This document shows, in pieces, positions 8,784 through 9,320 of a stretch of DNA of 64,000 nt. The position numbers and the translations under genes are program-made. The stretch is from an uncultured Clostridia bacterium. GTDB taxonomy: Bacteria > Bacillota > Clostridia > Christensenellales > Borkfalkiaceae. Where the stretch lies: assembly GCA_905235815.1 (NCBI GenBank), contig CAJOMT010000001.1:1-64000 (forward strand). The letters are read 5' to 3'. Positions within the stretch are counted from its first letter, which is position 1; every line of letters starts with the position of its first letter. The notes under the pieces are model-generated. The model had not been told where the DNA came from, made no database searches, and saw nothing but the letters and a program-made list of their open reading frames with translations.

Positions 8784-8922
8784 CGTTTTTATTAATGATT
8801 TGATTTATAAAGACGCCAAAAAATTCAAAAATGGAGATAAAGGGATTTTGCCGAGATACCTCGGCAAGATACTTTTGCTAACGCAAAAGATATACGAACG
8901 ACAAGCGTAACTAGTGCAAAGT

Positions 8923-8984
8923 TTTATCTCCACCATAACAAAAAAGGACGCTTTGGCGTCCTTTTTTGTTATGGTGGAGATAAA
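8923..8984. repeat. Perfect 62-bp palindrome (29-bp arms, 4-nt loop) with tRNA-Ala 3'-end sequence at its outer ends
   Basis: TTTATCTCCACCATAACAAAAAAGGACGC-TTTG-GCGTCCTTTTTTGTTATGGTGGAGATAAA; arms match exactly. Confidence 0.9.
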
Positions 8985-9196
8985 GGGACTCGCTCCGCTC
9001 GGCTTATACAATATGCTCATATTAACCGCTTGTCCTTCGCTTTCGCTCGGACATATTGCGGTTGTTTATGTTTCCGTTGCCTCGCTATCACGCCTGTGCA
9101 GCAAACGACCGTTTCATCGGTCGTTTGGTCGCAAAGTTCTATACCGGAAAAGAATACCCGTTTACTTTGCGACTTCCTGCCCGTTCGAGTCCCTTT
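8982..9196. repeat. ~215-bp hairpin-rich element bounded by 11-bp perfect terminal inverted repeats (AAAGGGACTCG / CGAGTCCCTTT) that match the tRNA-Ala T-arm
   Basis: TIRs at 8982-8992 and 9186-9196; internal inverted repeats 9024-9029/9058-9063, 9103-9111/9118-9126, 9128-9136/9165-9173. Confidence 0.6.
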
Positions 9197-9207
9197 TTGG
9201 GCATAAA

Positions 9208-9245
9208 AAATAACAGATAGGGTAAAAACACCCTATCTGTTATTT
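9208..9245 (-). terminator. Intrinsic terminator of the tRNA-Ala gene
   Basis: AAATAACAGATAGGGT-AAAAAC-ACCCTATCTGTTATTT, 16-bp stem directly 3' of the tRNA CCA on the minus strand. Confidence 0.8.
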
Positions 9246-9320
9246 GGTGGAGATAAAGGGACTCGAACCCTCGGCCTATGCGTTGCGAACGCATCGCTCT
9301 ACCAACTGAGCCATATCCCC
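9245..9320 (-). tRNA. tRNA-Ala (anticodon CGC), CCA encoded
   Basis: Reverse complement GGGGATATGGCTCAGTTGGTAGAGCGATGCGTTCGCAACGCATAGGCCGAGGGTTCGAGTCCCTTTATCTCCACCA folds as a cloverleaf; loop TTCGCAA gives anticodon CGC; acceptor stem has the G3:U70 alanine identity pair. Confidence 0.95.

Follow-up and report, generated by a model that had tools for sequence, protein, structure and literature searches.

The region behind the tRNA-Ala(CGC) gene of this Clostridia genome probably represents a single unit from a dispersed family of small, structured, non-coding and non-autonomous mobile elements. One small non-coding element is found behind at least 24 tRNA and tmRNA species, and one of its ends agrees with the local gene in every case. 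The family of small folded non-coding DNA elements is apparently undescribed so far. Full-text searches of open-access papers turned up no description of such units, and the novelty is provisional, as the searches covered open-access papers only. Coordinates given without a locus name refer to the window, which is the whole stretch of 64,000 nt that was analysed.

Organization of the unit behind tRNA-Ala(CGC)

The unit is read on the minus strand of the window, because the tRNA-Ala(CGC) gene runs from 9320 to 9245 on that strand. From 5' to 3', the tRNA gene is followed by a terminator hairpin, an antisense copy of the T-arm (9196-9183), a folded core that extends to CGGAG, a repeated tRNA 3' end that spans C56 to CCA (8992-8972), a second terminator, and older debris with a third, partial end. 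The tRNA gene (9245-9320; ARAGORN and Rfam RF00005, 72.3 bits) is the anchor of the unit, and the 3' part of its T-arm is GTTCGAGTCCCTTT. Right behind its CCA end lies a spacer (9208-9245) with a perfect 16-bp terminator-like hairpin, seen as an inverted repeat. The antisense copy of the local T-arm, here called G* (AAAGGGACTCGAAC, 9183-9196), forms an inverted repeat with the gene and corresponds to tRNA positions 53-66. The preliminary description of this DNA had correctly recorded these 14 nt as an inverted T-arm copy, and had missed that they are the diagnostic, tRNA-matched end of an element, a feature common to the 144 units compared in this study.

The core that follows, on the same strand, is made of three helices. 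Its closing helix pairs the 5' strand GGGCAG (9177-9182) with the 3' strand CTGCAC (9096-9101); this is helix 1 of alignment A2, 98% paired. Enclosed by it are hairpin 1 (9128-9173, GTCGCAAAGT / ACTTTGCGAC, with a variable loop; helix 2 of A2, 96% paired, 7/7 pairs compensatory) and hairpin 2 (9102-9127, CCAAACGACCG / CGGTCGTTTG; helix 3, 95% paired, 10/10 pairs compensatory). In several genomes (L028/L053, L030, L033, L052) AGTCGGCAACGTGACGTTGCATCC recurs instead of the variable loop of hairpin 1, resembling a nested palindromic insert or an alternative module. A conserved motif, GGCGTGATAGCGAGG, lies 3' of the closing helix (9080-9094; alignments A1 and A2). Between this motif and the 3' end of the core is a variable stretch (8998-9079), which by unit comparison is longer or bears cargo in other units. 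The core ends in CGGAG (8993-8997), which is joined directly to tRNA position C56, and the junction is alike in most tailed units.

The tail (8972-8992, CGAGTCCCTTTATCTCCACCA; minus strand) is a second copy of the tRNA-Ala 3' end with a 20/20 match, and the exact repetition there of 21 nt of the tRNA end (9245-9265), as first noticed, holds. The second terminator is a perfect 29-bp palindrome (8923-8984, arms 8923-8951 and 8956-8984), the arms of which extend into the tail and leave an inverted 13-nt tRNA end; the inverted 13-mer reported before at 8923-8935 is indeed present and is one end of this palindrome. The minus-strand segment 8832-8971 is either older debris or a second type of tRNA-end repeat, and it closes with a third, partial tRNA 3' end (AATCCCTTTATCTCCA); this shorter copy had been noted at 8832-8845 and spans 8829-8849. 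Is such a repetition expected by chance? Chance would give 0.03 occurrences of the 18-mer TGGAGATAAAGGGACTCG in the window when as many as 3 mismatches are allowed; 3 are present, a number that none of 100 shuffles reached.

Repeats of this second kind, also bounded by tRNA ends, were seen besides 8832-8971 in L290 (after tRNA-Ala), at L054 16253-16080 and in L027, and they stand in tandem in G004. They have an antisense acceptor end directly behind the terminator, a different body, and a tail such as AAACGGCAGTATCCC or CTCGGCAAAATCCC plus acceptor. Antisense to the window unit there is an ORF of 99 codons (8914-9213, plus strand), and such ORFs recur on other units; they follow the tRNA antisense sequence, may be annotated as hypothetical proteins, and look spurious. 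The opposite-strand reading of the unit, in which GTTCGANTCCC resembles a T-loop, was considered and rejected, since the partner T-stem is missing there.

Extent and placement of the family

A nucleotide search of 60 relatives for more copies found further units, mainly within the same genus. In the genome of the window itself, a related unit (77% identity) lies behind the tmRNA gene and another behind tRNA-Pro(CGG). Both are cut by contig ends, and in each the antisense stretch matches the T-arm of its own gene, with one mismatch at tRNA-Pro. A covariance model, R1, detected units in 10 of the 15 genomes of the genus, and a scan of the order with it gave units in 58 of 396 sampled genomes, which represent 22 of 143 genera and, in the numbering of the search tool, 11 families; the units often stand as tandem pairs or more. 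A broader model, R2, was used at class level, where units are found in the same order and in one family of another order, f52 in the same numbering (12 of 388 genomes, one match doubtful). The f52 units are compact, about 163 bp, and stand in tandem, with some spacers having no terminator hairpin. A weak class-level match in G577 was discarded, as it apparently lies inside coding sequence. Note that E-values of the covariance models are rough and that most genomes compared are fragmented assemblies. In the assembly of the window, contigs break inside units (ends of G000:C152 and G000:C153), and copy numbers from draft genomes are therefore underestimates.

Collections of phage, plasmid and viral contigs yielded no unit, and the only Rfam 15 match above gathering score is RF00005, which is the tRNA itself. 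A group I or group II intron was considered and dropped, reverse transcriptase being mostly absent and a permissive Rfam search giving only chance hairpin matches.

Where do the units lie? Altogether 144 distinct units were parsed, and the 135 with at least 200 nt upstream could be tested for position. A tRNA or tmRNA gene on the same strand lies within 1.2 kb upstream in 117 of the 135; for the other 18 no tRNA is present within the available upstream stretch, and in no case was the only tRNA on the opposite strand. The GAAC at the end of G* is located at a median of 63.5 nt behind the tRNA (quartiles 58 and 68). Counting proximal units, with three tmRNA genes counted apart, 24 tRNA/tmRNA species are used, most commonly Leu and Ser, and also Gly, Pro, Glu, Arg, Ala, Asn, Lys, Gln, Val and tmRNA; Thr units occur in arrays, farther from the tRNA. 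Core and variable part together take about 75-230 bp, not counting the ends, and units often stand in tandem behind one tRNA. The earlier proposal of a family of small non-autonomous elements bounded by the tRNA 3' end is supported by the many loci, the like boundaries, the tandem copies and the presence or absence in relatives.

Ends that match the local tRNA

G* is an antisense copy of 11-14 nt of the T-arm of the host gene. It was located via GAAC, independently of the positions under test, and its agreement with the local T-arm was scored at the variable T-loop positions 57 and 59. All 83 proximal units (within 120 nt of the tRNA) agree at both. When the tRNAs of these 83 units were reassigned at random in 2000 shuffles, the mean agreement was 42 and 34, and the maxima were 57 and 47. 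For distal units farther along the arrays the agreement is 33/33, which gives 116/116 for all units together. Units at more than one kind of T-arm occur in 16 genomes, and at 57 and 59 every one of these units agrees with the T-arm of its own gene. Positions 64-65 also agree more often than chance predicts, from 66 on the agreement is no better than chance, and therefore the copied stretch is tRNA positions 53 to about 65.

The tail, at the opposite end, has C56 or R57 as its first position and mostly follows CGGAG directly; in 67 of 84 proximal units it is a copy of the local tRNA end, with 16 or more of the final 20 nt identical. A simple target-site duplication, of the 3' end together with the spacer, was considered for this arrangement. 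It fits tandem units, where 16 of 21 spacers are more than 0.8 identical, but at terminal units the spacer behind the tail often differs from the one before it (35 of 46 at 0.8 identity or less), so that only 11 of 46 agree and the explanation is not general. Behind tRNA-Pro(CGG) in G006 (L056 15765-16092), a longer partial tRNA copy reaches into the anticodon arm, and the crossover point there is not the T-loop.

A conserved folded core

The core begins after GAAC and ends in CGGAG. In alignment A2, which has 120 distinct units and was fitted to the covariance model, a procedure that favours the structure, 95.1% of cells are standard pairs compared with 66.7% after shuffling. The covariation score of the core is 0.438, against 0.117 when shuffled and at most 0.051 when slid, and changes on both sides are found at 23/23 core pairs. 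Double changes were present already at 15 of 23 pairs in the first alignment of 19 sequences, which was built without a model. Complete units also fold better than shuffles, with a median z of -3.97 (n=90) and z below -2 in 85 of 90. Which strand folds? Wobble cells on the tRNA-sense strand are G-T in 46 cases and A-C in 17, and because G-T exceeds A-C there, the evidence points to the tRNA-sense strand as the folding one, as RNA or as single-stranded DNA.

A fold of this kind might also belong to a functional RNA, that is, the unit would be transcribed and G* would pair with the T-arm of the tRNA or with the tail, controlling the tRNA or acting as an RNA decoy. The covariation, the wobble bias towards G-T on the tRNA-sense strand and the complementarity of G* to the tRNA would all suit such a role. 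However, the units usually lie behind the terminator of the tRNA, a promoter was not found at the window unit, most relatives live without units, and neither tandem copies nor cargo would be expected of a regulator. We regard this explanation as very unlikely.

Integrases and the search for a mobilising enzyme

Genes for tRNAs are classic landing sites of bacterial mobile DNA. Are the units then the scars of ordinary integration? In G014, the orthologous tRNA-Ala(CGC), with the same upstream gene, has no unit, and a 405-aa phage-type integrase gene is found instead. The tRNA-Ala(CGC) of G012 is likewise adjoined by a phage-type integrase, and G011 and G009 show neither unit nor integrase in the stretch seen. 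In G014 and G012 these 405-aa tyrosine integrase genes face the tRNA (L285:183-1400 on the plus strand and L287:1084-2301 on the minus strand, respectively), and they belong to an ordinary integrative element that competes for that tRNA. The comparison of this locus in relatives, which had been proposed at the outset, gave an ortholog that lacks the unit. Among the assemblies compared, no circular form and no empty/filled pair that is clean at base resolution was seen.

If the units were remnants of ordinary tRNA-targeting islands, a tyrosine or serine integrase would have crossed over in the T-loop, and the core would be conserved DNA flanking the att site. The tail is indeed a typical 3'-end duplication, and the integrases at tRNA-Ala(CGC) in G014 and G012 suit this scenario. 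So does a large serine recombinase gene that abuts a unit in G170 (L125 10438-12141), its 3' end running straight into the unit tail and terminator. At the Dehalococcoides ssrA islands, T-loop crossover, tandem islands and 3'-end repeats are known, and the crossover point of their CcrB-like serine recombinase DsiB resembles that of the units (PMC3146451). Those islands differ in being large, with an integrase of their own and a single target gene, and no antisense T-arm or covarying fold is known to have been described for them. Scars of this kind leave unexplained why all units have an antisense T-arm, always in the same position, why it is re-matched to each tRNA in 116/116 units, and why 24 tRNA/tmRNA species share one folded core. 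Integrases are not consistently present. The idea of integration or excision scars in the preliminary description accounts for the second tRNA 3' end and fails for the antisense T-arm and the conserved folded core; as a whole we think it unlikely.

The preferred reading, a family of non-autonomous mobile elements, raises the question of which enzyme moves them. Among tyrosine and serine recombinases, reverse transcriptase, Y1 and IS110, none fits as mobiliser. Five unit-bearing genomes (G008, G091, G111, G125, G355) have only one PF00589 tyrosine recombinase, Xer-like and about 300-366 aa long, and similar ones occur in unit-free genomes. Serine recombinases are lacking in 7 of 20 unit-bearing genomes tested; reverse transcriptase (RVT_1) is present in only 2 of 20, and Y1 transposase (PF01797) in only 3 of 12 (also given as 3 of 16 genomes tested). 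The DEDD IS110 recombinase was found in 0 of 16 genomes, with control genomes positive. Clustering of 247 ORFs downstream of units showed no recurrent recombinase, there is no common integrase beside units, and a non-exhaustive look at the ORFs beside units noticed no Tns/TniQ or Cas effector genes. The search for an integrase belonging to the family, as had been suggested, therefore came out negative: no dedicated one accompanies the units. The helper may be a host Xer protein, an enzyme of another family, or a transient element.

Core lineages and cargo

Do the cores follow the tRNA or the genome? Cores at different tRNAs of a single genome have a median identity of 0.74. At one and the same tRNA, the median is 0.71 within a genus and 0.51 between families. 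Ends track the tRNA and cores track the lineage. Within a lineage, cores may move from tRNA to tRNA with their ends being adapted each time; alternatively, gene conversion rather than movement could have made the cores of a genome alike, by homogenising them. Both scenarios require a mechanism or selection that holds G* complementary to the T-arm and the tail.

Concerted evolution of resident elements would yield the same pattern of core identity. The units would then be old fixtures of their tRNA loci, with selection keeping G* complementary and gene conversion homogenising the cores, for which tandem copies and the common GAAC and CGGAG ends provide homology. Against this, the distribution is patchy in genus and order, the unit is absent at the orthologous tRNA-Ala of G014, and cores within genomes are about 25% diverged. 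We consider residence of this kind quite unlikely, and prefer mobile units.

Some arrays carry genes. A DpnII restriction operon lies between units at tRNA-Ser of G001, and at tRNA-Leu of G125 a head and a tail flank a Doc/Fic protein gene. Other defence genes enclosed by or adjoining arrays are those of a BpuJI-like restriction enzyme with C5 methylase (G282), a TIR protein (G296), HsdM (G045), HsdR (G105) and Fic (G004). Many other units have no cargo.

A possible mechanism and its meaning

How might such a unit move? The insertion point would be the T55-C56 step of the T-loop. Folding of the tRNA-sense strand, whether as RNA or as single-stranded DNA, would let G* pair with the 3' half of the T-arm or with its copy in the tail and would expose the junction T55|C56. 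An enzyme supplied in trans might recognise the folded, T-arm-matched site and recombine there, much as an integron integrase acts on a folded attC. The tRNA gene would stay whole because its 3' end is duplicated. New units would enter beside the tRNA, and repeated entry would build arrays that trap cargo. As a tentative proposal, for which we claim less than even confidence, the units may represent a new class of guide-matched mobile elements, in which a folded RNA or ssDNA has a short guide end that pairs with the tRNA T-arm, directs insertion into the T-loop and is rewritten for each new tRNA, so that one core could colonise many tRNA genes harmlessly and build arrays of defence genes.

Several known systems are partly similar. 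Like integron cassettes with their attC sites, the units form arrays at one anchor, a folded single strand with unpaired stretches, and an AAC/GTT at the junction, and they carry adaptive cargo; the units differ in that no IntI is shown for them and the anchor is a tRNA T-arm rather than attI. In attC the stem of inverted ends conserves complementarity and not sequence (PMC2727003), and the tRNA units are alike in this. The units do have an outer stem, an inner stem and terminal hairpins, whereas the core motif and the asymmetric loop are unlike the attC boxes (PMC2727003). Cargo of the units lies between core and tail, inside the outer stem, in contrast to attC where it lies outside, and the 3' loop of the units is long. 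The R''-L''-L'-R' layout of attC, with the gene outside the site, is not found in the units. The defining features of integron attC and of the Dehalococcoides ssrA islands fail or are not found in the units. Of the hallmarks of tRNA-targeting integrative elements, the duplicated 3' tRNA end at the far boundary is present in 67 of 84 proximal units; an own tyrosine or serine integrase beside the tRNA is not, genome searches being negative or unspecific. REPIN and MITE repeats are also small and palindromic, are thought to be moved in trans and have several copies per genome, whereas the units land at tRNA T-arms with re-matched ends. CRISPR-associated Tn7-like transposons of type V-K insert at a fixed distance beyond the matched site. 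They, too, have a short guide that corresponds to a tRNA gene, and the tRNA gene targeted varies (PMC11406308). The units differ from them in that they match only 11-14 nt, the tRNA end is duplicated, and Tns and Cas genes were not noticed beside them.

To our knowledge, every integrase or transposon described so far has a match to its site that is either fixed or encoded separately. If the units move, their mechanism would have to renew its own targeting sequence and to employ an unknown enzyme. If true, mobile DNA would here have a novel means of finding its landing site and of remaining matched to it, one that might serve as a tool for inserting DNA safely at tRNA genes. An apparent accumulation of defence genes behind tRNAs in these Clostridia might have its cause here, too.
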